Shown: one piece after another, positions 12,444 through 28,083 of the stretch
How positions within the stretch are numbered: the first letter of the stretch is position 1
Layout: the number at the start of each line of letters is the position of its first letter
Assembly (NCBI RefSeq): GCF_016745425.1
Contig: NZ_JAERVK010000009.1
Span: forward strand, 124,001-188,000
Direction of reading: 5' to 3'
Length of the DNA: 64,000 nt
From: Candidatus Methylomicrobium oryzae
Lineage (GTDB): Bacteria > Pseudomonadota > Gammaproteobacteria > Methylococcales > Methylomonadaceae
Made by a program: the position numbers and the translations under genes
The notes under the pieces: generated by a model
Seen by the model: only the letters and a program-made list of their open reading frames with translations
What the model was told of the DNA's origin: nothing
Databases searched by the model: none

Positions 12444-12466
12444 AAAAACCGGGTTGACCCGGCTTC
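12444..12466 (-). terminator. Rho-independent terminator after the HicA-like gene
   Basis: AAAAAAACCGGGTTGACCCGG on the plus strand gives a CCGGGTCAACCCGG hairpin followed by a U run on the minus transcript. It lies at the stop of the toxin gene. Confidence 0.75.
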
Positions 12467-13021: not shown

Positions 13022-13087
13022 GGCTCGCTCGCGGTTTTAGGAATTTATTACTAGGCCAGTATACCAGACCGATATATAAAGACCGCG

Positions 13088-13114
13088 CAAAAAAGCCGGG
13101 TTGTCCCGGCTTTG
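13088..13114. terminator. Bidirectional terminator hairpin
   Basis: AAAAAAGCCGGG TTGT CCCGGCTTT forms a stem with an A run on one side and a T run on the other. It sits between the RadC tail and the HicB-like gene and would end minus-strand transcription coming from the RadC side. Confidence 0.7.
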
Positions 13115-13133
13115 ATGGATTGGCGATCGATTC

Positions 13134-13210
13134 TTACATCTTCCCGTGTTCGGCGAACGAATGTACTGCGTTCTTGCCAATAATGAAGTGATCCAGCACG
13201 ATAGTGTGGG
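13134..13210 (-). pseudogene. RadC-family C-terminal fragment
   Basis: The minus strand encodes a 24-residue tail, LDHFIIGKNAVHSFAEHGKM and stop, which matches the end of RadC/JAB-domain proteins (usual form LLDHiiVG...SFAErG). The rest of the gene is gone: the frame meets the right copy of the tRNA-flank repeat at 13211. RadC-like genes are frequent on integrative elements. Confidence 0.65.
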
Positions 13211-13509
13211 TGAGGTACGAAGCCCATACTATGGGGCTGCCAAACCTACGCCCCTCTTTCACCGCCACCAGCCAAATCCTGGGCCAAATTCACTTCTTTT
13301 CGCCCACGCGATTTTTGCGAAAAGTTGATCCTGAAAAGGGAGGGTATGAGAAAAACGCCGGTTTTGATTGGCGATAAGAAGATAAAGAAGGGAAGGGGAA
13401 CAGCCACTTTACAGTCCTTTAATAGTCTTAGGGCTGTAAGTTTTTTGATCGATAAGAAGATTTTTGGCGCGCCCGAGAGGATTCGAACCTCTGACCTCAG
13501 CCTCCGGAG
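13211..13509. repeat. Direct repeat, right copy (tRNA-Arg flank and 3' half)
   Basis: Partner of 11918-12240. It runs without the extra palindrome up to and into the intact tRNA-Arg, ending in the anticodon loop. There is no gene in this stretch apart from the tRNA. Confidence 0.75.
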
Positions 13510-13541
13510 GGCTGCGCTCTATCCAGCTGAGCTACGGGCGC
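13465..13541 (-). tRNA. tRNA-Arg (anticodon CCG)
   Basis: The complement folds into a full cloverleaf: acceptor GCGCCCG/CGGGCGC, D arm with AGCTCAGCTGGATAGAG, anticodon stem CAGCC/GGCTG around the loop CTCCGGA (anticodon CCG), T arm with GGTTCGAATCC and an encoded CCA end. It decodes CGG. Its 3' half is duplicated at 12196-12240. Confidence 0.95.
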
Positions 13542-13576
13542 TTTGAGCCGACTATTATAACCAAATTCTAAAATAA

Positions 13577-15580
13577 TTACGACAACATTGTTTTCAGATG
13601 AGCGAGGCTGGCCCGGCCGCGCTCTTTGACCGTTTCGGGATCGAGCTGTTTTTTGTTGGCCCATTCGAGGTCGTCTGCGGGCAGTTCGCTCAGAAAACGG
13701 CTCGGTTCGCATTCCTCGACTTCGCCGTAGCGCTTGCGGTGCGTGCAGTAGCTGAAGGTCAGGGTGCGCTGGGCGCGGGTGATGCCGACGTAGGCGAGGC
13801 GGCGTTCTTCTTCGATATTGTCGGTGTCGATGCTGTTCTGGTGCGGCAAGAGGTTTTCTTCCATCCCGATCAGGAACACGTGCGGAAATTCGAGGCCCTT
13901 TGCGGCGTGCAGAGTCATCAGGCTGACCTGGTCGCCGGCTTCTTCTTCGCGGTTGCGTTCGAGCATGTCCATCAACATGATCTTCGAGACGATATCGGAC
14001 AGCTTGGCGTTGCCCGATTCTTCCTTTTCGGCCATGCGCTTGAGCCAGTCGAGCAGTTCGTAGACGTTCTTCAGCTTGCGCTCGGCGGCGTCGCGGCTGC
14101 CGGTGTTTTCCTGCAGCCATTGCTTGTAGCCGATCTGGTCGATCATCTGTTCAAGCACTGCGAACTGGTCGCCGCGTTCGGCCCGGTCGGCGGTGTCGAC
14201 GATCCAGTCGCGGAACCGTTCGAGGCGGTGGACGGCGTTGTCCTGCAGCTTCTGCTTCAGTCCGAACTCGCCGCTGGCCGCGAACAGGCTGATGTGGCGC
14301 TCGTTCGCATAGGCGCCGAGTTTTTCGAGCGTGGCCGGGCCGATCTCGCGGCGCGGAGTATTGATGATGCGCAGGTACGCGGCGTCGTCGTCCGGGTTTA
14401 CCAGCAGGCGCAGATAGGCCAGGATGTCCTTGATCTCGGTATAGGCGAAGAACGAGGTGCTGCCGCTGATGAAGTAGGGCACGTTGTTTTCGCGCAGGCA
14501 CCGTTCGAACAGGCGCGACTGGTGGTTGCCGCGGTAGAGGATCGCATAGTCGCCGTACGAGCCGCCGGTCTTGAAGCGGTGGTGCACGATTTCGGAAACG
14601 ACCTGCTGCGCTTCGGTGATCTCGTCCTTGTGGCTGAGTACGCGCAGGGGATCGCCGTAGCCGAGCCGGCTCCACAGGCGTTTTTCGAACACGTGCGGAT
14701 TGTTTGCGATCAATTGGTTCGCGACTTTCAGGATGCGGCCGGTCGAGCGGTAGTTTTGTTCGAGCTTGATCACCTGCAGGCGCGGGTAATCCCGTTGCAA
14801 TTGCGCCAGGTTTTCCGGTTGCGCGCCGCGCCAGGCGTAGATCGACTGGTCGTCGTCGCCGACCACGGTAAAGCGGCCGAGATTGCCGGCGAGCTGGCGG
14901 ACCAGTTCGTACTGGGTCGAGTTGGTGTCTTGGTATTCGTCGACCAACAGGTAGCGGATCTTGTTCTGCCATTTCTCGCGGATCGCCGGATGCTGCTGGA
15001 ACAGCAGCACCGGGATCAGGATCAGGTCGTCGAAATCGGCCGCGTTATAGGCTTTCAGGCTCTGGATGTAGTCCGCGTAGAGCAGAGCGGCGTGATGCTG
15101 TTCCTGGGTCGCGTGCGAGAGCGCCTGTTCGGGCGTCACGAACGCGTTTTTCCACTGGCCGATTTGCCAGGCGTAGCGCTCGTACTGGTCCGGATCGAAG
15201 CTAAGGGAACTGTGCGCGATCAGGTTGCGCAGCAGGGTCTGTTTGTCCTGCTCGTCGAATAGGGTCAGGCCAGGCTTGTAGCCGAGCGTTTTGGCTTCGG
15301 CGCGCAGGATGTCGAGCCCGAGCGAATGGAAGGTCGAGACGCGCAGGCCGCGCAATTGGTTGTCGTCGAGCAATCGGGACACCCGGGTCTTCATTTCGCG
15401 CGCGGCCTTGTTGGTAAAGGTGACCGCCGCGATATGGCGCGCGGGCGTGCCTTGTTTGACCAGGTAGGCGATCTTTTCGGTAATTACGCGGGTCTTGCCG
15501 CTGCCGGCGCCGGCCAGCACCAGTAGGGGGCGGTCGATGGCTTTGACGGCGGCTTGTTGCTCTGGGTTTAGCTTGTTCAT
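13577..15580 (-). CDS. rep: ATP-dependent DNA helicase Rep (UvrD/Rep superfamily 1A)
   Basis: 3'-5' DNA helicase that helps replication forks pass obstacles. The 667-aa protein begins MNKLNPEQQAAVKAI and carries the SF1A motifs in order: Q motif, Walker A (LAGAGSGKTR) near residue 25, TFTNKAAREM (Ia), LLVDEYQDTN (II), VVGDDDQSIYAWRGA (III), LEQNYRST (IV) and the VSLMTLHAAKGLEF and AYVGITRAQ motifs (V, VI). Length agrees with E. coli Rep (673 aa). An in-frame ATG at 15601 is possible and would add seven residues; the still longer upstream frame is not family-like. The gene ends 36 bp from tRNA-Arg. Confidence 0.92.
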   Translation of the reverse strand: MNKLNPEQQAAVKAIDRPLLVLAGAGSGKTRVITEKIAYLVKQGTPARHIAAVTFTNKAAREMKTRVSRLLDDNQLRGLRVSTFHSLGLDILRAEAKTLGYKPGLTLFDEQDKQTLLRNLIAHSSLSFDPDQYERYAWQIGQWKNAFVTPEQALSHATQEQHHAALLYADYIQSLKAYNAADFDDLILIPVLLFQQHPAIREKWQNKIRYLLVDEYQDTNSTQYELVRQLAGNLGRFTVVGDDDQSIYAWRGAQPENLAQLQRDYPRLQVIKLEQNYRSTGRILKVANQLIANNPHVFEKRLWSRLGYGDPLRVLSHKDEITEAQQVVSEIVHHRFKTGGSYGDYAILYRGNHQSRLFERCLRENNVPYFISGSTSFFAYTEIKDILAYLRLLVNPDDDAAYLRIINTPRREIGPATLEKLGAYANERHISLFAASGEFGLKQKLQDNAVHRLERFRDWIVDTADRAERGDQFAVLEQMIDQIGYKQWLQENTGSRDAAERKLKNVYELLDWLKRMAEKEESGNAKLSDIVSKIMLMDMLERNREEEAGDQVSLMTLHAAKGLEFPHVFLIGMEENLLPHQNSIDTDNIEEERRLAYVGITRAQRTLTFSYCTHRKRYGEVEECEPSRFLSELPADDLEWANKKQLDPETVKERGRASLAHLKTMLS

Positions 15581-15849
15581 GGATCGGTTGGTTTGTGGCA
15601 TTTCCGTCCGCTCGAAAAGCCGGCAGCCTGCCGATGGGCGGGACGCCATTGTAGAGGTTCGGGCGCTCGGAAAAAAGTCCGGCAAGTAAAAAATCCGCTT
15701 TTGCTTGTGGAACGAGGGACAGGCGGGTGAGGATCAGGAATTTATCGGCGCCGAATAGGCTGAAAATACCTTTTCCCGGTGAAGCAATGCCTTAAGGATC
15801 GGGTAGGAAAGAACTTTCCGAAGTTGATCGTTTCGAAAAGCGGATTGTT

Positions 15850-16026
15850 CATTCCCCTCTTTGAAAAAGACGACTGCATGGATGCAGGAGGTAGGGCAAT
15901 GCAGGAGCGATTGCCGACGACTGCATGGATGCAGGAGGTAGGGCAATGCAGGAGCGATTGCCGAGGGGTTAGGGGAGATTTTCCAAAATATAAATCCCCC
16001 TCGATCCCCCTTTTTCAAAGGGGGAG
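15850..16026. repeat. Second copy of the CCCCTCTTTG palindrome, split by a tandem repeat
   Basis: The arms TTCCCCTCTTTGAAAAAGA and CCCTTTTTCAAAGGGGGAG match the element at 4459-4541, but 94 bp of tandem repeat sit in the left arm. A truncated third copy of the right arm follows at about 16045-16065. The gap from 15602 to 16552 holds only repeats and promoter sequence; no gene is supported. Confidence 0.75.
15871..15964. repeat. Two identical 47-bp tandem units nested in a palindrome
   Basis: The unit starts CGACTGCATGGATGCAGG and ends GCGATTGCCGA; copies are 15871-15917 and 15918-15964. Removing them restores the parent sequence AAAAAGA-GGGG of the surrounding repeat, so the units were inserted into it. 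Confidence 0.85.
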
Positions 16027-16105
16027 ATGTATTTGACGAAGTTCCTCTTTTTCAAAGGGGAAAATTATTTTTGACGAAATCCTAAGTTAAAGTTGGGCCT
16101 GTCAA

Positions 16106-16128
16106 TTCCGGCAATCCATGCCGGAATG
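16106..16128. repeat. Short palindrome (CCGGCAATCCATGCCGG)
   Basis: An inverted repeat CCGGCA / TGCCGG with flanking AATTCCGG/CCGGAATG arms in the repeat-rich gap. It resembles other dispersed intergenic hairpins and has no assigned role. Confidence 0.5.
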
Positions 16129-16242
16129 ACGGCTTAACTTAGAATTGGGTCGATCATTACTTCCCTCTCTCGTTCTCCAACCGAGCGCTTATCCGTAATA
16201 CCGCCTTTACCCGGCTTGGGCTACACCCCAAAGGATAAACCG

Positions 16243-16436
16243 CTGTAGGGTACGCTGTGCGTACCTTTTCATCCCCCCTAATGGTACGCACAGCGTACCC
16301 TACAACTGGTGGTTGTATTTAAAGAACGTCTCTACACGGTTGTCGCCATACGAGGGGGCTCTCAGGACGCGCGCCGAGCGTGGGAACGATCAGGAGGCAT
16401 GTCGGGAGGTTATTTTTAGCCACATCCTTAATTCTG
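16243..16436. repeat. About 200-bp dispersed intergenic element, copy 2
   Basis: Same order of blocks as 6005-6208: the GTAGGGTACGCTGTGCGTACC hairpin, a TTTAAAGAACG block, a GTTGTCGCCA block and the closing GGGAGGTTATTTTTAGCC block ending CCTTAATTC. It ends about 55 bp before the sigma-54 promoter of the ANTAR gene. Confidence 0.75.
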
Positions 16437-16491
16437 AAAAAAGGGGGGGGCGTTCGTGGGTGAATTTTTTATTATTTTTTGAAGGGCGCGT

Positions 16492-16508
16492 TGGCGCGAA
16501 TATTGCAT
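16492..16508 (+). promoter_or_regulatory. Sigma-54 (RpoN) promoter before the ANTAR gene
   Basis: TGGCGCGAATATTGCAT matches the consensus TGGCACG-N4-TTGCA with one change and exact GG-N10-GC spacing. The transcript would start near 16518, giving a leader of about 35 nt before the ATG at 16553. It excludes longer upstream starts. Confidence 0.75.
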
Positions 16509-16552
16509 TTCTGTTTTTATTAAATTCTTTTTTAAGTTGCGCGTCTACCGCC

Positions 16553-17122
16553 ATGCCGAATTTCTTGATAGTCGAATGCGGAGTCGATAATACTCCCTTG
16601 GAAAGTGCCCTGCTTGAGGACGGCTCCGAAACGGTTTCGATTCAGTACGGGCCGTCGTTCATTGCGCAGGTCAGGGAAATAAGGCCGGACGCGGTCATTT
16701 TCAATCTTGAATCGCCTTCCGAGGCGCTGCTGGCCGACCTTCTCGCGCTGAGCCGGCAGTCGCCGCTGCCGGTGATCATGTTTGCGGCCGACGGCAGCAG
16801 TGCGACGATCCAGAAAGCGATTCAGTCGGAAGTCACGTCTTACGAGGTGAATGGCCTGGATGGCGATCGGCTTCCTTCCATCATCCAGGTGGCCCTGGCC
16901 CGGTTCAAGCATCAACAGGCGCTCAAACAGGCGCTGCAGGAAGCGAAAATCCAGCTCGAAGACAGGAAGCAGATCGACCGCGCCAAAGCGATTTTGATCA
17001 ACACGCGAAACTTTACCGAGAACGAAGCCTACCATACTCTCCGAAAACTGGCGATGGACCGGAATATCACGCTGGGCCAGATGGCCCGGAACGTGATTGC
17101 GATGGCGGAATTGCTGAAATAG
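16553..17122 (+). CDS. NasT-like ANTAR regulator with degenerate receiver
   Basis: RNA-binding antitermination regulator of the NasT/AmiR type, 189 aa. Residues 1-115 form a receiver-like domain, 118-138 a coiled coil, and 137-188 the ANTAR domain, with the conserved pattern ERAK.IL (here DRAKAIL), EAYHTLRKLAMD and the final helix. In NasT-type receivers the acceptor Asp lies just before a DSP motif; here that stretch is FNLESP (Asn51, Glu53), and the N-terminal acidic pair is also missing. The domain therefore probably is not phosphorylated. The start at 16553 fits the sigma-54 promoter at 16492. ANTAR proteins control nitrate/nitrite genes by melting terminators, which suits the downstream island. 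No NasS sensor is present; the GAF protein next door may replace it. Confidence 0.85.
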   Translation: MPNFLIVECGVDNTPLESALLEDGSETVSIQYGPSFIAQVREIRPDAVIFNLESPSEALLADLLALSRQSPLPVIMFAADGSSATIQKAIQSEVTSYEVNGLDGDRLPSIIQVALARFKHQQALKQALQEAKIQLEDRKQIDRAKAILINTRNFTENEAYHTLRKLAMDRNITLGQMARNVIAMAELLK

Positions 17123-17146
17123 AACGCTGACTTTTATCGACCCGCC

Positions 17147-18070
17147 ATGAAAACGTTTATCAAAGTGATCGAAATCTGGATTCCCGACAAAGAACGGACG
17201 CAGTTGGAGTTCGGCTCGGGATTGTACGGCAGCTTGACGGATTTCAAGCGCATCAGCGAAAAACAGCGTTTCGCTTACGACGAAGGGTTGCCGGGCAAAG
17301 CATGGGCCGCGGGCCACCCGATCGTGCTGAGCCGGTTTGAAGATTCCTATTTCAAGCGCACCGCCGCGGCGCAAAAAGCGGGTTTGACCTGCGGCATCGC
17401 CATGCCGATTTTCTCCGGCGATTTTTTATTGGCTATCGTGGTGTTTCTCTGCGGGGACGATCGGGAGCAGGCCGGGGCGATCGAGGTCTGGTGCAACGAG
17501 CCGGCCGCCCCGGAAACCCTTCATGTGCTGGACGGCTATTACGGTTCCTTGGGGCAATTCGAGGCTTTATCCCGGCAAATCAGGCTTGCCAAGGGGCAAG
17601 GCATACCGGGCATGGCCTGGGAGGCGGGGATGCCGGTTTTGACCGAGGATATCGGCCTGGCGGCCGGTTTTCCCCGCGCGGAGGAAGCGCAAAAATCGGG
17701 CGTTGCCACCGGGCTGGGCATTCCGTTTATTCACGGCGATGAGCAAGTTTATGCGATCACTTTTCTTTCCGCGAACGCGACGCCCCTCGCCAAGCGCATC
17801 CAGATATGGGTTCCGGATCCCGAGCGCGGACAGTTGGTCTGCCGGCAAAGCTACAGCAAAAACAGCAACAATCTGGCGGAAATCTTCGAAACGCTGACGG
17901 TCGACAAGGGAGCAGGCGCCTTGGGCCGGGCCTGGCTGACCGGCATGCCGTCGATCAGCGGCAATCAGGAAGAAGTCTATAACGTCGAACTGGACGATCT
18001 CAGCAGCATGCTGGCGATTCCGGTGATCGAGCAAGGGCGGCTGAAGGCGATCGTGACGTTTCTGTTTTGA
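17147..18070 (+). CDS. Triple GAF-like repeat protein, candidate sensor
   Basis: A 307-aa soluble protein built from three related GAF-like units with no output domain. Each unit opens with an IWIPD-like strand (residues 9-14, 112-118, 218-224), then a G(L/I)PG-AW motif (47-53, 152-158, and GALGRAW at 257-263), and ends with an A-P-I/V strand followed by AIVxFL. GAF domains bind small ligands; the ligand here is unknown. It begins 24 bp after the ANTAR gene, so the two are almost certainly one operon. The natural idea is that it senses a nitrogen compound and gates the ANTAR protein, in the way NasS gates NasT; that is inference. Confidence 0.75.
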   Translation: MKTFIKVIEIWIPDKERTQLEFGSGLYGSLTDFKRISEKQRFAYDEGLPGKAWAAGHPIVLSRFEDSYFKRTAAAQKAGLTCGIAMPIFSGDFLLAIVVFLCGDDREQAGAIEVWCNEPAAPETLHVLDGYYGSLGQFEALSRQIRLAKGQGIPGMAWEAGMPVLTEDIGLAAGFPRAEEAQKSGVATGLGIPFIHGDEQVYAITFLSANATPLAKRIQIWVPDPERGQLVCRQSYSKNSNNLAEIFETLTVDKGAGALGRAWLTGMPSISGNQEEVYNVELDDLSSMLAIPVIEQGRLKAIVTFLF

Positions 18071-18260
18071 AGTTTTCTCCGGTCGAGCCGGAAGCTTTCG
18101 TCCTCATGTTTAGGCATAGGAACGGTTAGGCCTGAATTTTTCAACTTTCGCCGGCCGATCGATTCGCCGAACAGTCGCATTGGCGCCGGCTCGGCCGCCC
18201 TCTTTTCCTCTCATCCGCCCCGGGTCATTCAATCGCCCCGCACCATTCGAACACTCGGCC

Positions 18261-18277
18261 TGCACCAGATTGGTTCG
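18261..18277 (+). promoter_or_regulatory. NtrC-binding-like dyad upstream of the nitrite channel
   Basis: TGCACCAGATTGGTTCG fits the NtrC pattern GCAC-N5-TGGTGC with one mismatch. It lies about 75 bp upstream of the sigma-54 element at 18352, a usual distance for an enhancer. The 18071-18452 gap contains no gene. Confidence 0.55.
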
Positions 18278-18351
18278 GCTGCCGGCGCAATTATCATAAA
18301 TTTAGCAATTAAATGGGGAAAGTTCCAAAATATTGCCGTCTCTCTCCGCTG

Positions 18352-18367
18352 TGGTGCGTTTTTTGCT
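18352..18367 (+). promoter_or_regulatory. Sigma-54 promoter before the formate/nitrite channel
   Basis: TGGTGCGTTTTTTGCT has the invariant GG-N10-GC spacing and a good -12 TTTGC box; the -24 box departs from TGGCAC at two positions. It is about 85 bp before the ATG. Confidence 0.6.
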
Positions 18368-18452
18368 TCATCTTTAGAACGCATGTCCCCGGCATGTCCA
18401 AATCGGTTCTTGATTGAACTGCTCATAATCACTTTCGGATGTAGAGAAAATT

Positions 18453-19265
18453 ATGTCTTATTTAGTCCCTTCAGAATTTGTCACAAAAATGGTGGATGCG
18501 GGTGAATCCAAAATTTTCATGTCGACCCGGGATACGATAATTCGGGCTTATATGGCCGGCGCTATCCTGGCATTGGCCGCTGTGTTCGCGGTTTCGATGA
18601 CCGTCCAGACAGGTTCGCCGCTGATTGGCGCGATCCTGTTTCCGGTCGGCTTTTCGATGCTGTACCTGTTGGGTTTCGACCTTCTGACCGGCGTTTTCGT
18701 ATTGACTCCGCTGGCGCTGATCGACAAACGGCCGGGCGTTACGATCGGCGGCGTGTTAAGGAACTGGAGCCTGGTTTTCGTCGGCAATTTCATGGGGGCG
18801 TTTACGGTGGCGGTGATGATGTCCATTGTCTTCACGTTCGGTTTTTCGACCGAGCCGAATGAAGTGGGGCAGAAAATCGCCGGCATCGGCGAAGCGCGGA
18901 CCCTGGGCTACGCAAAATACGGTGCGGCCGGCATGCTGACGCTGTTCATCAGAGGCATGCTTTGCAACTGGATGGTATCCACCGGCGTGGTCGGGGCGAT
19001 GATTTCCACCACGGTCAGCGGCAAGGTGATCGCGATGTGGATGCCGATCATGCTGTTCTTTGCGATGACTTTCGAGCATTCCATTGTCAATATGTTCCTG
19101 TTTCCCTCCGGACTGATCATGGGCGGAAAATTCTCGATCATGGATTATCTGATCTGGAACGAAATTCCGACGGTAGTCGGAAACCTGGTCGGCGGACTGG
19201 CCTTTACCGGACTAACCTTGTATTCCACGCACGTCAAAACGGCGCCCAAACGCTCTATTGCCTGA
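18453..19265 (+). CDS. Formate/nitrite transporter family channel (NirC/FocA-like)
   Basis: Inner-membrane pentameric channel for small monovalent anions, 270 aa with six hydrophobic helices. The FNT signatures are present: the MLCNWMVS segment and FEHSIVNMFLFP, which contains the central pore His. The nitrogen-type neighbourhood (ANTAR, kinase, cyanase, NrtABC-like transporter) suggests nitrite rather than formate, but sequence alone does not decide. It has its own sigma-54 element and NtrC-like dyad upstream and a strong terminator directly downstream. Confidence 0.87.
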   Translation: MSYLVPSEFVTKMVDAGESKIFMSTRDTIIRAYMAGAILALAAVFAVSMTVQTGSPLIGAILFPVGFSMLYLLGFDLLTGVFVLTPLALIDKRPGVTIGGVLRNWSLVFVGNFMGAFTVAVMMSIVFTFGFSTEPNEVGQKIAGIGEARTLGYAKYGAAGMLTLFIRGMLCNWMVSTGVVGAMISTTVSGKVIAMWMPIMLFFAMTFEHSIVNMFLFPSGLIMGGKFSIMDYLIWNEIPTVVGNLVGGLAFTGLTLYSTHVKTAPKRSIA

Positions 19266-19280
19266 TTTGAGCACCACCTT

Positions 19281-19326
19281 AAAGCTTCTGCCGGCTTCTC
19301 CGGCTGAAGCTTTCTCGTTTTTTCTT
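19281..19326 (+). terminator. Terminator/attenuator between the channel and kinase genes
   Basis: AAAGCTTC (19281-19288) pairs with GAAGCTTT (19306-19313) and GCCGG with CCGGC inside, followed by CTCGTTTTTTCTTT. The kinase gene starts only about 15 bp later, so kinase-cyanase expression from upstream requires read-through, a situation suited to ANTAR-type antitermination. Confidence 0.75.
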
Positions 19327-19340
19327 TATATACGCGCTGA

Positions 19341-21227
19341 ATGCCCGGTCAATTAAAAGCCGCCCTAGGGAAATATTCCGAAAAAGGCCGCAAGGAAATC
19401 AATCAGGATTTTCACGGCGCCCATATTCCGAAAGAACCTCAATTGAGCTTTAAAGGAATTGCCGTTGCGCTGGCCGACGGGATCAGCAGCAGCGACGTGA
19501 GCCATATCGCCAGCGAAGCCGCCGTGACGGGATTTCTGGAGGATTATTACTGCACTTCGGAGGCTTGGTCCGTTCAGAAATCCGCACAGCAGGTCCTGCA
19601 GGCGGCCAATTCGTGGCTGCATGCCCAGACCCGGCAAAGCCCGTATCGCTACGATAAGGACAGAGGATACGTCTGCACTTTGAGCGCAATGGTGATCAAA
19701 TCGACCACCGCGCATATTTTTCATGTAGGCGATTCGCGCATCTATCGATTGCGCGGCAATGCGCTGGAACAATTGACCAATGATCACCGGTTTTGGGTTT
19801 CGCAGGACGAAAGTTATCTGGGCCGTGCGTTGGGAATCAATCCGCAGATCGAGATCGACTATCGCGCTCTGCAAGTCGAAGTCGGCGACGCTTTTTTATT
19901 TGCGACGGACGGCGTTTACGAATATGCCGGCCCCGGTTTCGTCGTCGATGCGTTCAAAGCGCATTCGAACGATCCGGATGCGGCGGCGAAAGCGATCGTG
20001 GTGGAAGCCTACCGGCAAGGCAGTCCGGATAATTTGACCGCCTTGGTGGTCCGGGTCGAAGACCTGCCCGGCCAGGATGCCGACGCGCTTTACCGGCAGT
20101 TGACCGAGCTGCCTTTTCCTCCGCCGTTGGACGCCCGTATGGTTTTCGACGGCTACAAGATCGTCAGGGAAGTCCATGCCAGCAGCCGCAGCCACGTATA
20201 TCTGGCGGTGGATAACGACACCGGTGCGTCCGTCATCCTGAAAACGCCGTCGATCGATCTTCGCGGCGACCCCGCTTACCTGGAAAGGTTTCTGACGGAA
20301 GAGTGGATCGCGCGGCGCATCAATAGCGCCTACGTGTTGAAACCCTGCGTCCGGACGCGGCAGCGCAACTATCTCTATCTCGCGACCGAATTCGTCGACG
20401 GCAAGACATTGACGCAGTGGATGATCGACAACCCGAAACCGGATATGGAATCCGTGCGCGGCATCGTCGAACAAATCGCCAAAGGCCTGCGCGCTTTTCA
20501 CCGGCTGGAAATGCTGCATCAGGACCTGCGGCCGGACAATATCATGATCGACACGACCGGCACGGTCAGGATCATCGATTTCGGCTCGACGAAAGTGGCC
20601 GGCCTGATGGAGATCGCCACGCCGATTCAGCGCAGCGAACTGCTCGGAACCGCGCAATATACCGCGCCGGAATATTTTCTGGGAGAAAGCGGGACGACCC
20701 GTTCGGACATTTTTTCGCTGGGCGTGATCACCTATCAGATGTTGTCGGGGAAACTGCCCTACGGCGCCGAAGTCTCCAAAGCCAGGTCCCGCGCCGCGCA
20801 AAAGAAGTTGGGCTATTGCTCGGTGCTGGATGACGATCGCGAGATTCCCGCCTGGATCGACGATGTGCTCCGGAAGGCGGTGCATCCGAATCCGTATCAG
20901 CGCTACGAGGAGTTATCCGAATTTATCTACGATCTTCGCCACCCGAACCAGGCGTTTCTGAATAAAACCCGGCCGCCCCTGATCGAACGCCATCCGGTGG
21001 CTTTTTGGAAAAGCGTTGCTTTAATTCTGGCAATTACGGTTGTCGCATTGTTGTTCAAATTAAAAAGTGAGGAGTCTAAAAATGAAAACCGCACCCGCAC
21101 AAACGCCGTCGTCCGGCAAAGCCGAATCGCTGCTGACCAAAGAGCAAATGACCGACCTGATCATTACGGCGAAAGTGAAAAAACAGCTGACCTGGACCGC
21201 GATTGCGGAACAGGTCGGCGTCGATGA
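19341..21227 (+). CDS. Bifunctional PP2C phosphatase / Ser-Thr protein kinase
   Basis: Fused signalling enzyme: a PP2C-type phosphatase (about residues 8-240, with ALADGIS, HVGDSRIYRL, ATDGVY and DNLTALVVRV) followed by a Hanks-type kinase (about 272-535). The kinase has Lys301 in VILK, the catalytic HQDLRPDN loop (Asp395, Asn400) and the IIDFG metal Asp413. One hydrophobic helix near residues 552-571 anchors it to the membrane. In pseudomonads such fusions lie inside nitrate-assimilation clusters, which matches the present setting; the target is unknown. Oddly, the frame runs about 145 bp into cynS, beyond where family members usually end just after the helix, so a late frameshift may have extended it. 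Confidence 0.85.
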   Translation: MPGQLKAALGKYSEKGRKEINQDFHGAHIPKEPQLSFKGIAVALADGISSSDVSHIASEAAVTGFLEDYYCTSEAWSVQKSAQQVLQAANSWLHAQTRQSPYRYDKDRGYVCTLSAMVIKSTTAHIFHVGDSRIYRLRGNALEQLTNDHRFWVSQDESYLGRALGINPQIEIDYRALQVEVGDAFLFATDGVYEYAGPGFVVDAFKAHSNDPDAAAKAIVVEAYRQGSPDNLTALVVRVEDLPGQDADALYRQLTELPFPPPLDARMVFDGYKIVREVHASSRSHVYLAVDNDTGASVILKTPSIDLRGDPAYLERFLTEEWIARRINSAYVLKPCVRTRQRNYLYLATEFVDGKTLTQWMIDNPKPDMESVRGIVEQIAKGLRAFHRLEMLHQDLRPDNIMIDTTGTVRIIDFGSTKVAGLMEIATPIQRSELLGTAQYTAPEYFLGESGTTRSDIFSLGVITYQMLSGKLPYGAEVSKARSRAAQKKLGYCSVLDDDREIPAWIDDVLRKAVHPNPYQRYEELSEFIYDLRHPNQAFLNKTRPPLIERHPVAFWKSVALILAITVVALLFKLKSEESKNENRTRTNAVVRQSRIAADQRANDRPDHYGESEKTADLDRDCGTGRRR

Positions 21228-21573
21228 AGTCTGGCTGGCTTCGGCCTGCCTGGGCATGAACAGCATGAAGCAGGACATTGCCGAAAAGCTCTGCGCCGTT
21301 TTGGAACTGCCTGCCGAAGTTCAAACCGCCTTGGAAATGTTTCCTTATAAACGATGGTCTTTTGATGTCCCTCAAGATCCGCTTATTTACCGGCTTTACG
21401 AAATCGTCGGCGTTTACGGCGAAACTTTGAAGGAAATCATTCATGAAAAGTTCGGCGACGGCATCATGAGCGCCATCGATTTCAGCATGACGGTCGGCAA
21501 AGAAGAAAACCTCGCCGGCGACCGCGTCGTGATCACGATGAACGGCAAATTTTTGCCTTACAAATCGTGGTAA
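21082..21573 (+). CDS. cynS: Cyanate hydratase (cyanase)
   Basis: Converts cyanate and bicarbonate to ammonia and CO2, giving usable nitrogen and removing toxic cyanate. The 163-aa protein has an N-terminal helical DNA-binding-like domain and the conserved C-terminal catalytic domain. Arg104, Glu107 and Ser130 fall exactly eight residues after E. coli Arg96, Glu99 and Ser122, and the PLIYRLYE and GIMSAIDF motifs are intact. The ATG at 21082 follows GAGGAG at 21069-21074; a GTG at 21067 would lie before that site. The start overlaps the 3' end of the kinase frame. Confidence 0.95.
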   Translation: MKTAPAQTPSSGKAESLLTKEQMTDLIITAKVKKQLTWTAIAEQVGVDEVWLASACLGMNSMKQDIAEKLCAVLELPAEVQTALEMFPYKRWSFDVPQDPLIYRLYEIVGVYGETLKEIIHEKFGDGIMSAIDFSMTVGKEENLAGDRVVITMNGKFLPYKSW

Positions 21574-21942
21574 CCGGTTTGTTGCTTTAGCATAGCGTTT
21601 GGGGGGCAGCCGGGTCATCGCTCGGTTGCCTCTGCTTTTTTCTTTCGGTTCAATCGTCGGCTTTCGGCAAAGATCATGTCGAGGGCTGATTCTTCCGCCT
21701 CAATGCCGTGGGGCCTTCAGCGTTCCGAACTGCAGCGTAAGTAAAATCCGCATCCCCGTTAGCGCATGTTCATATTGCGTCCGGGGAATGCATGCGTTTT
21801 TCCATGCGCGTGGGAGGGCACCCGCATTTCCCCTTATCCAATCCATGATGCCGTTCAATATTCGCTAAGAATTACTGCCCTGTAGGGCAAAAGTCCTCTA
21901 CCGAGGCGCGGCATTGCTTAGGATCTGGCCTATATGGGGGAT

Positions 21943-21975
21943 AGACCTGCCAGGTTTTTAAAACCTGGCAGGTCT
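21943..21975. repeat. Perfect palindrome AGACCTGCCAGG...CCTGGCAGGTCT
   Basis: 33-bp hairpin with arms AGACCTGCCAGGTTTT / AAAACCTGGCAGGTCT. This type of palindrome is scattered in many bacterial genomes. Other repeat pieces lie nearby (TTTGGAGCCGAATTCTTAG at about 21990, also near 4588). The 21574-22231 stretch has no supported gene. Confidence 0.75.
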
Positions 21976-22066
21976 TGGGCCGGGAAGTGATTTGGAGCCG
22001 AATTCTTAGGGCTGTATGCCCGAAACGGGAAGCTTCAGCCCGGTATTTTGCGAATCAAACCCCTTT

Positions 22067-22115: not shown

Positions 22116-22231
22116 ATCTCTCCGCTCCCGTTCGCCGGTTTATTTCTGCAAATAAATAAATTCATGCAAATGGCTTATGCAAATATATGAAAAATAATAA
22201 AAAATAAAGAAAAAGAAGGGGTTTGTGGTAT

Positions 22232-22247
22232 TGGCACAAATAATGCT
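22232..22247 (+). promoter_or_regulatory. Sigma-54 promoter of the nrt-like operon
   Basis: TGGCACAAATAATGCT carries a perfect -24 TGGCAC and a -12 GC at the required spacing (GG-N10-GC). The transcript would have a leader of about 130-140 nt. Confidence 0.75.
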
Positions 22248-22314
22248 TTTACCCAAGTGAAGACTCTAACGGTGGGGTCAAAAATTTGTGCTTAAAGATG
22301 AGCGATTGACAAAG

Positions 22315-22370
22315 GCATCACTATGGGATGCGGCATTGCCGGCGTTCCCGCAGTAAGACTGCTTTATGCC
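22315..22370 (+). promoter_or_regulatory. Structured leader of the nrt-like mRNA
   Basis: Two adjacent hairpins are visible: GCATC-ACTATGG-GATGC (22315-22331) and GCAGT-AAG-ACTGC (22350-22362). GGCAT copies at 22314 and 22332 can both pair with ATGCC at 22366, so the hairpins could exclude each other. A paired-hairpin leader is what ANTAR proteins bind, but the loops do not clearly fit the published hexaloop pattern and no strong U run follows. Confidence 0.3.
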
Positions 22371-22396
22371 TTAAATTTTACCCCGAGATGAATTTT

Positions 22397-23797
22397 ATGA
22401 AACAAGGAACATTTACCCTGACTCAATTGGCCGGCCTATTCGCCAAGGCGGCAGCTACTACGGCTTTGATCTTCAGTACTTCCGCCGGTGCGGTGACCGA
22501 GAATTTGGAAACCGAAACCGTTAGGCTCGGCTTTATCAAGCTGACCGATATGGCGCCGCTCGCGGTCGCTTTCGAAAAAGGTTTTTTCGAGGATGAAGGC
22601 TTGTCCGTGCAAGTGGAGGCGCAGGCTAACTGGAAAGTCGTGCTGGACCGCGTATTGAGCGGCGAACTGGACGGCGCCCACATGTTGGTGTCGCTGCCTT
22701 TCGGCGCAGCGATCGGTTACGGTACGAAAGGCGACATCATCAGTGCCTTGACGCTGTCTTCGAATGGCGTTGCGATTTCCGTATCGAACGACGTCTGGAA
22801 AGAAATGAAACCGCAGATTCCTGTGAAGGACGGCAAGCCGGTGCATCCGATCAAGGCGGATGCGCTGAAGCCGGTGCTCGAAAAATATAAGGCGGCCGGC
22901 AAACCGTTCAACATGGGGATGACTTTTCCGGTCGGTCCGCACAACTTTAAACTGCGTTACTGGCTGGCGGCCGGCGGCATCAATCCGGGCTTCTATGCAC
23001 CGCCTCAGGATACGTCCGGACAAATCAATGCCGAAGCATTGCTGTCGGTAACGCCGCCGCCGCAAATGCCGGCAACCCTGGATTCCGGTACGATCGTCGG
23101 TTACTGCGTCGGTGAGCCCTGGAACCAGCAAGTCGTATTCAAGGGTATTGGCGTGCCGGTAATCGGTGATGTTGAATTGATGAAGAACAGCACCGACAAA
23201 ATTTTCGGCGTAAACAAAGCCTGGGCCGAAAAACATCCGAATACGCATAAGGCGTTGATCAAGGCGCTGATTCGAGCGGAGATGTGGCTGGATGCGGAAA
23301 ACAACAAAAACCGCAACGAAGCCGTCGAGATGCTCTCGCAAACCCAATATGTCGGCGCCGATTATGACGTGATCGCGAACAGCATGAACGGTACTTTCGA
23401 GTATGAAAAAGGCGACAAGCGCTCGTTGCCCGATTTCAACGTGTTCTTCCGCTACAACTCTTCGTATCCGTATTACAGCGATGCGGTCTGGAATCTGACC
23501 CAGATGCGCCGTTGGGGCCAAATCAGCGAAGCGAAGCCGGATTCCTGGTATATGGATGTGGCCAAGCAAGTTTACCGTCCCGATATCTACATGGCGGCTG
23601 CGAAAGAGCTGATCGCCGAAGGCAAGGCGAAGGCCAGCGATTTTCCGCCTGAAAGCGAAACCGGTATCAAGCCGCCGAATGCCGACTTCATTGACGGTGT
23701 TGTCTTCGATGCGACGAAGCCGAACGAATACCTGACCAAATTCCCCATTGGTCTAAAAGGCAAGCAAAAGGTCACCGGCGGCAAGATCGTCGAGTAA
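22397..23797 (+). CDS. ABC transporter substrate-binding protein, NrtA/CmpA family
   Basis: Periplasmic binding protein for a nitrate-type ABC importer, 466 aa from this start (an ATG at 22388 is nearly as good). Residues 1-32 form an export signal ending TSAGA. The mature part begins with the RLGFIKLTDMAPLAVAFEKGFF motif that marks the NrtA/CmpA/SsuA-like fold, and includes GVAISVSN and the MTFPVGPHNFKLRYWLAAGG region typical of NrtA. Substrate may be nitrate, nitrite or cyanate: cyanobacterial CynABD cyanate importers are close relatives and cynS is the nearest upstream gene. First gene of an operon with its own sigma-54 promoter. Confidence 0.85.
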   Translation: MKQGTFTLTQLAGLFAKAAATTALIFSTSAGAVTENLETETVRLGFIKLTDMAPLAVAFEKGFFEDEGLSVQVEAQANWKVVLDRVLSGELDGAHMLVSLPFGAAIGYGTKGDIISALTLSSNGVAISVSNDVWKEMKPQIPVKDGKPVHPIKADALKPVLEKYKAAGKPFNMGMTFPVGPHNFKLRYWLAAGGINPGFYAPPQDTSGQINAEALLSVTPPPQMPATLDSGTIVGYCVGEPWNQQVVFKGIGVPVIGDVELMKNSTDKIFGVNKAWAEKHPNTHKALIKALIRAEMWLDAENNKNRNEAVEMLSQTQYVGADYDVIANSMNGTFEYEKGDKRSLPDFNVFFRYNSSYPYYSDAVWNLTQMRRWGQISEAKPDSWYMDVAKQVYRPDIYMAAAKELIAEGKAKASDFPPESETGIKPPNADFIDGVVFDATKPNEYLTKFPIGLKGKQKVTGGKIVE

Positions 23798-23958
23798 CGG
23801 CCCGGAAGCTTGATTAAGGGTTAACCCTTCTTGTTCTAGATGTGCCTCTGATGTGTACAACGGATGTCGAGTGAGTGCAGGGACGCACATTTTTTTCGGC
23901 ACGATTCCTTCAAGACACCACTTATTCGGATCCCCCCGGTAACGGGCGCGGGCAAATT

Positions 23959-24972
23959 ATGAATAACAAATTGATCAAATTCTTGAATATTACCGGTTTG
24001 ACCTGGTTTATTCCGATGGTGAAAATCGCCTCGGGAGAAAATCCCGCGCAGCAACTGCGCCAGTTATGGCTGATGATGGGCGTGCCGTTCATCGCCTTCC
24101 TGCTGTTTTTGGGACTGTGGAGTTTTTCCGCAGCGCGCGTGAATACCAGCCTCGGCGCGATTCCGGGACCCGTTGCGGTCTGGCAGGAGGCCGGCGGGCT
24201 GATGGACGAGCATCATGCGCAGCGCCAAAAAGAACGCCAGTATTACGAGCGCCAGGAAGCCCGGATCAAGCAGGCGCAGGCCGAGCATCCCGACCAGCCG
24301 CCTCCGAAAGCGCGCCCTTATAACGGCAAAGGCACCTATCTGGATCAGATCGGCACCAGTCTGGCAACCGTATTCACCGGCTTCTTTCTGGCGACGCTGG
24401 TCGCGGTGCCGGTCGGTCTTTTGTGCGGCATGAGCCCGACCATCAATACGGCGATCAATCCGCTGATCCAGATCTTCAAGCCGGTGTCGCCTTTGGCCTG
24501 GCTGCCGATCGTGACTCTGGTCGTTAGTGCGGTCTACGTTACCACCGACGATTCCTGGTTCGAAAAATCGTTCCTGACTTCCGCGATCACGGTAACCCTG
24601 TGTTCGCTGTGGCCGACGCTGATCAATACGGCGGTCGGCGTTTCCTCGATCGACAAGGATCTGGTCAATGTCGGCAAGGTGCTCCGCTTGAACTGGAGCA
24701 CGCAGATCAAGAAGATCATCCTGCCTTCGGCCGTACCCTACATTTTTACCGGCATGCGGCTGTCGCTGGGGGTGGGCTGGATGGTGCTGATCGCGGCAGA
24801 AATGCTGGCGCAGAATCCGGGGCTCGGCAAGTTCGTCTGGGACGAGTTTCAGAACGGCAGTTCCAACTCGCTGGGCCGGATCATGGTGGCGGTGTTTACG
24901 ATCGGGATCATCGGCTTCATTCTGGACCGGATCATGCAGTCGCTGCAAAAAGTCTTTTCTTTCGGACGCTGA
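23959..24972 (+). CDS. ABC transporter permease, NrtB family
   Basis: Inner-membrane permease of the nitrate/sulfonate/taurine class, 337 aa. After one N-terminal helix (about residues 45-65) comes an unusual highly charged insertion (about 88-125, rich in Gln, Glu, Arg and Lys with a QPPPKARPY end). The conserved five-helix permease core then follows, with the cytoplasmic EAA-like loop near STQIKKIILPSAVPYIFTG. Typical NrtB proteins lack that insertion and are shorter. The ATG at 23959 precedes MNNKLIKF; the frame is open upstream, but that part is not family-like. Operon partner of the genes on both sides. Confidence 0.87.
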   Translation: MNNKLIKFLNITGLTWFIPMVKIASGENPAQQLRQLWLMMGVPFIAFLLFLGLWSFSAARVNTSLGAIPGPVAVWQEAGGLMDEHHAQRQKERQYYERQEARIKQAQAEHPDQPPPKARPYNGKGTYLDQIGTSLATVFTGFFLATLVAVPVGLLCGMSPTINTAINPLIQIFKPVSPLAWLPIVTLVVSAVYVTTDDSWFEKSFLTSAITVTLCSLWPTLINTAVGVSSIDKDLVNVGKVLRLNWSTQIKKIILPSAVPYIFTGMRLSLGVGWMVLIAAEMLAQNPGLGKFVWDEFQNGSSNSLGRIMVAVFTIGIIGFILDRIMQSLQKVFSFGR

Positions 24973-24984: not shown

Positions 24985-26784
24985 ATGATTTCAGCCCAAT
25001 TAAAGTCGAACAATGCCGACGTTTCGGATCGCCCGAAGGACAATGTGGTAGAGCTTCCTGCGAAAACCCGGGCTTCCGAACCGAAGGGCTCCAAAGAGGC
25101 AGCCGCCAAGACGCTGCTTGAATTGAAGGATGTCTGCAAGTCCTACGGCGAAGGGACGCAGAAGACTTCGATATTGAAGGACATCAACCTGACGATCCGC
25201 GAAGGCGAATTCATCGCGATCGTCGGTTTTTCCGGCAGCGGCAAGACGACGCTGGTGTCGATCATCGCCGGCCTGTGCGGCGTCGACAGCGGCGACGTGT
25301 TGAAGCAGGGCCAGCCGATCACGGCGCCCGGCCCGGACCGCGGCGTGGTGTTTCAGAATTATTCCCTGATGCCCTGGCTGACCGTGTACGAAAACGTCGC
25401 TTTGGCGGTCGATCAGATTTACCGGGACTGGACGCCCGCGCAACGCCAGGCGCATACCGAGAAATACGTGCGGATGGTGAATCTCGGCGCCGCGATGGAC
25501 AAAATGCCGGCCGAACTTTCAGGCGGCATGCGCCAGCGGGTCAACGTCGCACGGGCCCTGGCGGCGAATCCGGACATCCTGCTGCTCGACGAGCCCTTGA
25601 GTGCGTTGGATGCGTTGACCCGCGGTAATCTGCAGGACGAAATTCTGCAGATTTGGGAGCAGGACAAGAAAACGGTGGTGCTGATCACCAATGATGTCGA
25701 CGAGGCGATCTATATGGCCGACCGGGTCATTCCGCTGAATCCGGGACCGGATGCGACGTTCGGCCCTGCGTTCAAGATCGACATCGAGCGGCCGCGCGAC
25801 CGGACCGCGCTGAACCATAACGAAGAATTCAAGCGCCTGCGTGCCGACATCACCCGTTATCTGATGCAGGTGGGCCTCGAAAAAAACCGGCAGGATAATG
25901 CGGACCGCGTGGTGTTGCCGAATGTCCGCCCGAACACCGGCAACGACTGGAAAACGGATACGTCGGCCCTGAAACCTTCGCAGGACGATCTGGGCCGGCC
26001 GCGCTATCTGGAGTTCTCGCAAGTCTCGAAAATCTACCCCACGCCGGACGGCAACAGCACCGTCAAGGTGGTCGACGGCTTCGACATGAAGTTGAAAAAG
26101 GGGGAATTCATTTCGATCATCGGCCACTCGGGCTGCGGCAAATCGACCGTGCTGTCGATGACCGCCGGCCTGAACGAGATTTCGGAAGGCGGCATCGTGC
26201 TGGATAACCGGGAAATCGATAGCGCCGGTCCCGACCGCGGCGTGGTGTTTCAGGCACCCAGCCTGTTTCCCTGGCTGACGGCATTCGAGAACGTGACTTT
26301 GGGCGTCGATAAAGTCTATCCGCATGCGACCCAGGCCGAACGCGACGACATCGTCGAATATTACCTGACTCGCGTGGGCCTCGGCGATTCGCTGCATAAA
26401 AAAGCCGCCGACATGTCGAACGGCATGCGGCAACGGGTCGGCATCGCCAGAGCGTTTGCGCTGTCGCCCAAATTGCTGCTGCTGGACGAGCCTTTCGGGA
26501 TGCTGGACTCTTTAACGCGTTGGGAATTGCAGGAAGTATTGATGGAGGTGTGGGAGCGGACGCATGTGACCGCGATTATTGTGACGCACGACGTCGATGA
26601 GGCGATCTTGCTGGCCGACCGGGTCGTGATGATGACCAACGGTCCGCACGCCAAAATCGGCAAGATTCAGGACATCGATCTGCCGAGGCCGCGCAGCCGC
26701 AAGGCGCTCCTGGCGCATCCCGATTACTACCGTTACCGGGAAAGCCTGCTGACCTTCCTCGCCGAATGCGACCACACTCACTAA
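24985..26784 (+). CDS. Fused double ATPase subunit of the NrtCD-type ABC transporter
   Basis: Two complete ABC ATPase domains in one 599-aa chain. Domain 1 (about residues 46-285) has GFSGSGKTT, LSGGMRQRV and LLLDEPLSALD. Domain 2 (about 335-595) has GHSGCGKST, a variant signature MSNGMRQRV and LLLDEPFGMLD. Cyanobacterial systems use separate NrtC (ATPase plus binding domain) and NrtD; here two ATPases are joined by a linker and there is no NrtA-like tail. A strong ribosome site (GGGGAGG at 24973) lies before the ATG. Because the second signature has Asn for Gly, the two ATP sites may not be equal. Confidence 0.88.
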   Translation: MISAQLKSNNADVSDRPKDNVVELPAKTRASEPKGSKEAAAKTLLELKDVCKSYGEGTQKTSILKDINLTIREGEFIAIVGFSGSGKTTLVSIIAGLCGVDSGDVLKQGQPITAPGPDRGVVFQNYSLMPWLTVYENVALAVDQIYRDWTPAQRQAHTEKYVRMVNLGAAMDKMPAELSGGMRQRVNVARALAANPDILLLDEPLSALDALTRGNLQDEILQIWEQDKKTVVLITNDVDEAIYMADRVIPLNPGPDATFGPAFKIDIERPRDRTALNHNEEFKRLRADITRYLMQVGLEKNRQDNADRVVLPNVRPNTGNDWKTDTSALKPSQDDLGRPRYLEFSQVSKIYPTPDGNSTVKVVDGFDMKLKKGEFISIIGHSGCGKSTVLSMTAGLNEISEGGIVLDNREIDSAGPDRGVVFQAPSLFPWLTAFENVTLGVDKVYPHATQAERDDIVEYYLTRVGLGDSLHKKAADMSNGMRQRVGIARAFALSPKLLLLDEPFGMLDSLTRWELQEVLMEVWERTHVTAIIVTHDVDEAILLADRVVMMTNGPHAKIGKIQDIDLPRPRSRKALLAHPDYYRYRESLLTFLAECDHTH

Positions 26785-26817: not shown

Positions 26818-28083
26818 ATGACACATTACACCTCTAAAGTTACCTTTCTGTCGCTGTCCTTGCTGAGCAGTGCGGCGATGGCCGACGTGACGCAGGAAAT
26901 CGAGGATGCGCTGAATTTTTACCATTACGGCAACAACGGCGCGATCAAAGCCGATATCAATTACCGGTGGGAGAACGTCGACCAGGACAAGGGCACGGCC
27001 AAAACCGCGAATGCAAATACCGCCCGGTTCCGGTTGGGTGCCCAATCGCCGAAGTTTTACGGCTTTCAGGGCTATGCCGAATTCGAAGGGCTTTGGGCGA
27101 TGCAGGAGGACTACAACAGCACCCGGAACAAAAACACAACCTACTCTACGATTGCCGATCCCGAGAAAACCGAGCTGAACCAGTTATGGATCAGTTATTC
27201 GGGCATACCCGATACGATTATCAAAGGCGGCCGGCAGCGCATCAAACTGGACGACGACCGCTATATCGGCAACGTCGGCTGGCGGCAACTCGAAACCACC
27301 TACGATGCGATCCTGCTGACGCACGCCAACCAGCAGATTTTCGGACTGACGATCAATGCCGGTTATATCGGCAACGTGCAGACCTTTACTTCGACGACGG
27401 AAAATATCGAAGCGCCGATCTTGAACATCAATTATAAGGTGGGCGATTACGGCAATCTGGTCGCTTACGGTTACTGGCTGGACTACCAGGATGTCAATCC
27501 GGGGCCGGCGGCGGGCAGAAACCTGTTTCTGGAAAAATCCAATCAGACCTACGGTATCCGTTTCAACGGTTCGTCGCCGAAACTCTTCGATACGATCAAT
27601 CTGCTTTATACGGCCGAATGGGCCGACCAGAAGGATTACGGCCACGGCACGACCAAGTACGAAGCCGACCGTTTCAATTTCATGGGCGGCGTCAAGGCCT
27701 TCAACGTCAGCGTGATGGGGGCTTGGGAGCAGTTGAACGGCTACGGGGTCAACAAAACCTTCGATACGCCGCTCGGCACAAATCATGCCTTCCAGGGCTG
27801 GGCCGATCTGTTCCTGACCACGCCGGCGAACGGGATCCGCGATCTGTTCGGCACGGTGATGGTCGAGTTCCCGCGTTACCAAACCACCGTGACCGGCGTC
27901 TATCATGATTTCAGCGACGACACCGGGCAAATGGCTTACGGCAAGGAATGGGATTTCCAGGTCGTCAAGAAATTCGGCAAGCATTATTCGGTGCTGGCCA
28001 AATACGCCAACTTTAACGCGGATACCGGTTTTGCGGCGACCGATACGCAAAAAATCTGGTTTCAAGCGAACGTCAGTTTCTAA
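26818..28083 (+). CDS. Outer-membrane porin, alginate-export (AlgE-like) family
   Basis: Beta-barrel outer-membrane protein, 421 aa, with a signal peptide (cleavage after AAMA near residue 22), alternating amphipathic strands and a C-terminal Phe. The GGRQRIKLDDDRYIGNVGWR region is characteristic of the alginate_exp domain family. It is preceded by AAGGA and lies 33 bp after the ATPase gene, so it belongs to the transporter operon; the likely job is passage of the transported anion across the outer membrane rather than alginate export. Confidence 0.8.
   Translation: MTHYTSKVTFLSLSLLSSAAMADVTQEIEDALNFYHYGNNGAIKADINYRWENVDQDKGTAKTANANTARFRLGAQSPKFYGFQGYAEFEGLWAMQEDYNSTRNKNTTYSTIADPEKTELNQLWISYSGIPDTIIKGGRQRIKLDDDRYIGNVGWRQLETTYDAILLTHANQQIFGLTINAGYIGNVQTFTSTTENIEAPILNINYKVGDYGNLVAYGYWLDYQDVNPGPAAGRNLFLEKSNQTYGIRFNGSSPKLFDTINLLYTAEWADQKDYGHGTTKYEADRFNFMGGVKAFNVSVMGAWEQLNGYGVNKTFDTPLGTNHAFQGWADLFLTTPANGIRDLFGTVMVEFPRYQTTVTGVYHDFSDDTGQMAYGKEWDFQVVKKFGKHYSVLAKYANFNADTGFAATDTQKIWFQANVSF

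Follow-up and report, generated by a model that had tools for sequence, protein, structure and literature searches.

The window, by which we mean the whole stretch of 64,000 nucleotides from Candidatus Methylomicrobium oryzae that was analysed, carries a gene for an ANTAR protein and, 24 bp behind it, a gene for a protein of three GAF-like repeats (GAF3). Both are on the + strand, and the pair is located upstream of nrtABC. The coordinates, strand and gap of the pair given in an earlier note on this DNA were all correct. The features of the locus are as follows.

16553..17122, + strand: ANTAR protein with degenerate receiver, 189 aa (Pfam match and receiver alignment)
17147..18070, + strand: GAF3, three GAF-like repeats, 307 aa (GAF_2 matches and structure model)
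18453..19265, + strand: formate/nitrite-type (FNT) channel (counterparts in the nas operons of G909 and G976)
19341..21227, + strand: PP2C phosphatase - Ser/Thr kinase fusion (runs at its 3' end into the CynS frame)
21067..21573, + strand: cyanase CynS (likely ATG near 21082)
22231..22247, + strand: sigma54-type -24/-12 promoter (TTGGCAC..ATGCT) before nrtA (strict pattern)
22262..22279, + strand: hairpin P1, hexaloop AACGGT (A1, G4), predicted ANTAR target
22289..22304, + strand: hairpin P2, hexaloop AAAGAT (A1, G4), predicted ANTAR target
22308..22379, + strand: terminator region (GACAAAGGC..GCCTTAAATTTT), with 3 model pairs non-standard here
22388..23797, + strand: nrtA, nitrate-binding protein (start 22388 or 22397)
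23875..24972, + strand: nrtB, permease
24985..26784, + strand: nrtC, two ATPase domains (TIGR01184 in two stretches)
26818..28083, + strand: porin-like outer-membrane protein (named by resemblance only)

The porin-like gene was also present 3' of nrtC in many relatives. The FNT, PP2C-kinase and cyanase genes (18453-21573) form a module that recurs elsewhere: it is found behind nrt genes in Ca. Methylobacter favarea (L092, L133), and G909 and G976 have it in their nas operons (L249, L251); the cargo of the FNT channel may be cyanate or nitrite. The PP2C-kinase frame (19341-21227) enters the cyanase gene (21067-21573) by about 160 bases in a different frame; in G101 (L046), the end of the PP2C-kinase is matched in two separate pieces. 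A frameshift or a misread 3' end of this gene is possible. Two other observations were made in the vicinity. An inverted repeat around GGTACGC..GCGTACC 5' of the ANTAR gene (16241-16307), with a microRNA match below threshold, looks like a small repeat element, and two small overlapping genes on the - strand (12465-13021) resemble, by eye only, a HicA/HicB toxin-antitoxin pair.

The ANTAR domain was identified with Pfam PF03861 (E 9.7e-17), and the receiver half gave a sub-threshold Response_reg match (18.2 bits against a cut-off of 30.2). This receiver-ANTAR architecture is also that of NasT; in the ANTAR tree the window protein was placed on a branch separate from the NasT rows, to which it is 27-33% identical in the alignment. 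The receiver residues were read from an alignment with 84 relatives, some rows of which are near copies, and the roles of the positions (acceptor, acidic pair, switch, Lys) are those which we take to apply to receivers in general. The acceptor position is Asn51 (FNLESP), and the window receiver has no phosphate-acceptor Asp; the switch Thr/Ser position is Ala78, the conserved Lys position is Asn100, and of the acidic pair Glu8 is retained and the second position is Cys9. Thus, the loss of the acceptor Asp noted earlier was borne out, while the loss of the N-terminal acidic pair noted with it applies to the second position only. In the 64 rows of the GAF group, the acceptor residue is Asn in 56, His in two, Gln in two, Ala, Val and Asp in one each, and a gap in one, and it is Asn in all 11 of the NarK-linked ANTAR rows described below. 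Asp was found in all six NasT rows (five located beside NasS within the family, and L070) and is likewise retained in the NasT of G909, G883, and G976.

Since the receiver is without a phosphate acceptor, a phosphorelay is unlikely. In such an ordinary relay, an unlinked histidine kinase would phosphorylate the ANTAR receiver; the structure model, with receiver-like alternating strands and helices, and the retained Glu8 are in its favour, but Asn51, Ala78, and Asn100, together with the near absence of Asp from the GAF group, argue against it, and no PdtaS-type kinase or other histidine kinase was found among the seven window genes scanned. We regard this explanation as scarcely credible. The opinion of the earlier note that phosphorylation is unlikely is therefore upheld, and control of the ANTAR protein by phosphorylation appears, from its residues, very unlikely. 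Note that the second ANTAR protein of the genome (L002) was considered and set aside: it has a canonical-looking receiver (LDIRMP), and no nitrate gene was seen by eye among the ORFs of its 3.2-kb locus.

GAF3 was matched by GAF_2 across three stretches (E 4.1e-20), in agreement with its earlier description as composed solely of three GAF-like repeats, and all 41 members of the GAF3 alignment (A4), window copy included, were matched by the same model. The structure model of GAF3 alone had a pLDDT of 87.9 and a pTM of 0.89. Its best fold matches were GAF proteins generally, with free-methionine-sulfoxide reductases and plant MYC factors first; structures of NreA, including the nitrate-bound 4iuk, were among the matches (Z 9.8-10.5) and, since NreA is one of many proteins with the GAF fold matched, this indicates the fold and no ligand. 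A link with plant NLP proteins was rejected: Pfam GAF_NLP matched 22 of the 41 members (best 5e-6), general GAF models scored far better (best 2e-23), and the GAF_NLP match thus reflects GAF kinship only. A redox site formed by the cysteine pair C82-C102 was also rejected. C102 is invariant in the 72 rows and C82 was present in 69 of them, but the five copies from nas/cyn operons outside the family all carry Ser or Thr in place of C82, and the conserved disulfide was dropped for this reason. The family-specific residues of GAF3 were concentrated in repeat 3 (8 of 10) in a comparison whose "linked" set (n = 52) comprised all family orthologues, including those with a non-adjacent ANTAR gene; this clustering is accounted for equally well by lineage.

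The same gene pair was searched for in a family of 237 genomes, which we take to be the Methylomonadaceae. GAF3 was found in 81 genomes (E <= 1e-5), ANTAR in 135, and both in 79; GAF3 without ANTAR was restricted to G170, where the match begins at a contig edge, and G178, where it is a short remnant. The counter-case named in the earlier note, a GAF protein usually found without an ANTAR partner, is accordingly not what the family presents. Nine partial GAF3 matches were removed, and among the 78 full-length copies that were counted, 58 are located directly 3' of the ANTAR gene on the same strand, which is more than expected by chance, with a spacing of 11-54 bp in 57 and of 278 bp in G168. 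For 11 of the 78 copies, the ANTAR gene is on the same contig, ten of these belonging to genus g11 and being on the opposite strand, some convergent with and touching the ANTAR gene and some 5-12 kb away; none of the 14 full-length copies of g11 is directly 3' of ANTAR on the ANTAR strand. For nine copies, the ANTAR gene is on another contig, and three of these nine are second copies. Adjacency was observed in 12 of the 16 genera with GAF3 (absent in g11, g15, g17, and g28), and the pair is also present in the cultured Methylovulum miyakonense and Methyloglobulus morosus. Second GAF3 copies were observed in some family genomes (L167, L168, and L169 near 10001) beside genes that by eye resemble those for ClpX, glutaredoxin, flavodoxin, and Rieske proteins, with no ANTAR gene there.

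The earlier note had described NasS as missing, and this is what we found: with a NasS query at E <= 1e-60, only NrtA (41% identity) was matched in the genome, which is 99.8% complete. NasS proper (at least 69% identity) was detected in six of the 237 family genomes (G007-G010, G044, and G174) at the same cut-off, which could miss a broken or partial NasS in fragmented genomes. None of the six carries GAF3, and all carry a NasT-type ANTAR protein (28-32% identical to the window ANTAR protein).

A further 49 family genomes have a closer ANTAR protein, with neither GAF3 (E <= 1e-5) nor NasS found; G043 has a distant ANTAR protein only. Twelve of the 49 loci were fetched, and in 11 of them (L188-L192 and L194-L199, a clade that appears Methylomonas-like) the ANTAR gene is located directly 3' of an MFS gene (4 bp or less, or overlapping), the twelfth, L193, being the one in which it is not. 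Eight of the 11 MFS proteins were scanned and gave NarK-family matches (E 5e-88 or better, slightly under the cut-off of that model). In the ANTAR tree, which is unrooted, comprises 82 of 85 rows (L152 and L139, which are incomplete, and L058 were left out) and has bootstrap values that are not fully settled, the 11 NarK-linked proteins form one supported group (98/96) apart from the GAF-adjacent group (100/99). This clade is a possible case of a transporter acting as the sensor.

Outside the family, clear GAF3 copies were found in four of the 369 genomes of a class sample (G538, G284, G420 with two copies, and G589), eight more having no better than weak, incomplete GAF matches within long proteins, and in 11 of the 398 genomes of a phylum sample, own genome included. 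The ANTAR gene is directly beside GAF3 in one of the 14 outside genomes (G589), little flank being visible for G538 and G284, which are on short contigs. In that one genome, the gene order is an nrtC with a NasS-like tail (L070:3007-5268), a nasT keeping the acceptor Asp, GAF3, and nirB. In G909, G883, and G976, which are of another class, the order is nasT-nasS-nrtA-nrtB-nrtC-GAF3-nirB, GAF3 being away from nasTS; NasS was called in these three because a two-sequence NasS profile outscored NrtA. The operons of G909 and G976 continue with FNT, PP2C-kinase, and CynS, the genes beside GAF3 in the window too; in G883, none of these three was matched. The GAF3 gene of G730 is in convergent orientation to a cyanase and an Nrt-like transporter. 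Six other outside genomes belong to one genus (g390) and resemble Bradyrhizobium by their GAF3; no ANTAR, NrtA or NrtC match was found within 1.5 kb of GAF3 in g390. In the named Bradyrhizobium loci that were read, the GAF3 gene is beside a class II aldolase gene and its neighbours are mostly unrelated to nitrate; in the locus L175, NrtB/NrtC-like transporter genes adjoin GAF3 on the other strand. Twelve of the 14 outside genomes were searched for ANTAR (G786 and G968 were left out), and all 12 encode it somewhere. These 12 genomes are from 8 genera and thus are not independent, and the base rate of ANTAR was 70 in 200 phylum-sample genomes, a sample including the own genome and three GAF3 genomes.

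These operons bear on another explanation, in which GAF3 is an accessory of the nitrate operon (acting, for example, on the PP2C-kinase, nitrite reductase or transporter) with no role in ANTAR regulation, and the ANTAR protein is controlled otherwise, for example with the nitrate transporter as sensor. The position of GAF3 between nrtC and nirB in G909, G883, and G976, the three genes that follow it in two of these, and the MFS gene in front of the ANTAR gene in 11 of the 12 fetched loci without GAF3 would fit such a role; the close adjacency of ANTAR and GAF3 in most GAF3-bearing genera of the family, their genome-wide co-occurrence there and the correlation of their distances (r 0.51; see below) speak against it. 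We consider it unlikely, with a real share of the probability nevertheless.

The correlation was obtained by a mirror-tree analysis of 26 of 61 loci, those carrying all five proteins (ANTAR, GAF3, NrtA, NrtB, and NrtC). The ANTAR and GAF3 distances gave a partial r of 0.51 after removal of NrtA, NrtB, and NrtC (0 of 1,000 permutations); the matching values did not exceed 0.20 when ANTAR was compared with the individual Nrt proteins and were 0.18 to 0.35 in the case of GAF3. Such a correlation can come from the co-inheritance of neighbours. A read-through chain of ANTAR and GAF3 was also modelled jointly with AlphaFold (pLDDT 90.2, pTM 0.63); it had no confident interface, and by our estimate this pTM is about the value expected for independent placement of the two proteins. 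On the adjacency, the co-occurrence, the absence of NasS and the correlated change, GAF3 is likely to be the partner of the ANTAR protein.

The leader of nrtA was analysed for a target of the ANTAR protein. ANTAR proteins bind two hairpins having hexanucleotide loops with a common A1 and G4, as described in PMC3369931. Fifty-six of the 59 distinct leaders contain the strict -24/-12 pattern, which occurred in 0.17% of shuffled sequences, and the remaining three had near matches by eye. Of 85 leaders, the three without the strict motif (L046, L077, and L164) were excluded and identical ones were merged, which gave 56; alignment A2 (53 leaders) was obtained after removal of L057 (a near copy) and of L090 and L093 (cut short). 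In A2, changes on both sides were observed for every pair of the two hairpins, six in hairpin 1 and four in hairpin 2. The nine terminator pairs showed no two-sided changes: three are invariant, four have one-sided changes, and two depart only by unpaired cells. For the whole leader structure, 96.1% of the cells were paired. Shuffles gave 90.5%, none of the 500 reaching the observed value, and with the structure slid 41-57% were paired.

The covariance model of the leader, of which the window leader is itself part, gave a single match in the window genome, at the nrtA leader (E 2.1e-8), and matched all 24 chosen relatives. Nine of these 24 have no row in A2 (G101, G164, G166, G062, G013, G092, G202, G159, and G009), G062 being a near copy of a row; G101, which is of the same genus as the window genome, gave an E of 1.1e-6. 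Additional sites in relatives were located 5' of nirB at three loci (L235, L237, and L238) and upstream of a protein which by eye is EAL-like at two (L233 and L234), and there were four further ones. A dual-hairpin target 5' of the FNT gene was tried and rejected, as there was no unusual fold (z -0.64) and the covariance model found the nrtA leader only; no A1/G4 hairpin pair was seen by eye in 18071-18453, and an Rfam search of 10000-30000 gave no ANTAR-type match. Judging from the leader, the ANTAR protein almost certainly regulates nrtABC through antitermination.

The window terminator is weaker than those of most relatives and its T-run is broken. This and the sigma54-type promoter, present in nearly all of the distinct leaders, would suit a system in which the ANTAR protein is always active, the leader only sets the level, the real control is exerted by nitrogen status at the promoter, and GAF3 plays no part. 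The retention of both hairpins throughout the family, with compensatory changes, is hardly what a constitutive factor would require, and we hold this explanation to be improbable.

The system was compared with those already described. The dual hexaloop leader with a terminator on nitrate genes is present in the window as in NasS-NasT, and the acceptor Asp is retained in the NasT proteins compared but lost in the window ANTAR protein. The acceptor Asp of two-component phosphorelays (EutVW, PdtaSR) is likewise lacking in the window receiver. In PdtaS-PdtaR, a GAF-containing sensor acts on an ANTAR regulator, and PdtaS is a histidine kinase. AmiC has the periplasmic-binding-protein fold, which is not that of GAF3. 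In NasS-NasT of Paracoccus denitrificans (PMC3795266), as in the window, a receiver-ANTAR protein occurs together with hairpins in the leaders of nitrate genes. A separate protein exerts the control there, which is a proposal for the window system, and the sensor there is the NrtA-like NasS, whereas the window has a three-GAF neighbour and no NasS was found. Three classes of ANTAR control are distinguished in PMC7496416: a kinase with a receiver, a pseudo-receiver with a signal-responsive protein, and one-component proteins, GAF-ANTAR among them. AmiC-AmiR, a pseudo-receiver ANTAR system under contact control by a signal-responsive protein, is of the second class (PMC7496416), and the window receiver is likewise acceptor-less. 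GAF-ANTAR one-component proteins (PMC3369931 and PMC7496416) combine a GAF sensory part with ANTAR output, which are both present in the window too, but they are one chain, whereas the window has two genes 24 bp apart, three GAF repeats, and a receiver in addition. NreA of Staphylococcus is a soluble GAF-fold protein acting on the NreBC system (PMC8199190) and binds nitrate (PMC9310391). It shares the GAF fold with GAF3 at the Z scores given above; NreA has one GAF domain and a kinase system as its partner, whereas GAF3 has three repeats and a nitrate binding that is presumed. No GAF partner of NasT or of any ANTAR protein was found in a literature search covering mostly papers free of subscription. 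The window system would thus fall in the pseudo-receiver ANTAR class, with a type of sensor that we did not find described in the literature searched.

We suggest, with slightly better than even confidence, that the pair is a two-protein antitermination switch for nitrate uptake, composed of the ANTAR protein and of GAF3 sensing a small ligand. By analogy with known ANTAR systems, the ANTAR protein would bind the leader hairpins and prevent termination, and nrtABC would be read through. GAF3 would hold or release the ANTAR protein by direct contact via the receiver in response to the ligand, which most likely would be nitrate or nitrite, as for NasS with NasT. A role of GAF3 as the nitrate sensor is plausible, NreA being a precedent for a separate GAF nitrate receptor.

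GAF3 is not a simple stand-in for NasS, because it is found in the NasT and NasS operons of G909, G883, and G976 and because another clade retains a related ANTAR protein without GAF3. For these reasons GAF3 looks like an older part of nitrate operons, and, since it coexists with NasS elsewhere, its original role may be accessory; it would have become the only visible partner of the ANTAR protein where NasS is absent. The suggestion of the earlier note that GAF3 represents a different sensor class is thus retained in part: NasS was not found, the receiver is degenerate, the pair is conserved, and an ANTAR-type RNA target precedes nrtA, but GAF3 as a mere substitute for NasS was not sustained. 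A wider reading, which we offer tentatively and consider rather doubtful, is that a single family has changed the sensor of one nitrate antiterminator repeatedly: a few genomes would use NasS, most a three-GAF nitrate/nitrite receptor, and a third clade a NarK-type transporter encoded directly 5' of the ANTAR gene. The RNA target and the set of regulated genes would have remained unchanged, and the acceptor Asp of the receiver would have disappeared following the loss of NasS.

With its three partner situations, the family constitutes a natural experiment on a regulator changing its sensors. The occurrence of GAF3 in the nas operons of a different class suggests that nitrate assimilation has a component not yet named. 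Should GAF3 be the sensor, the pseudo-receiver ANTAR class would gain a sensor fold besides those of NasS and AmiC, and the control of nitrate in methane oxidisers would have a testable molecular switch.
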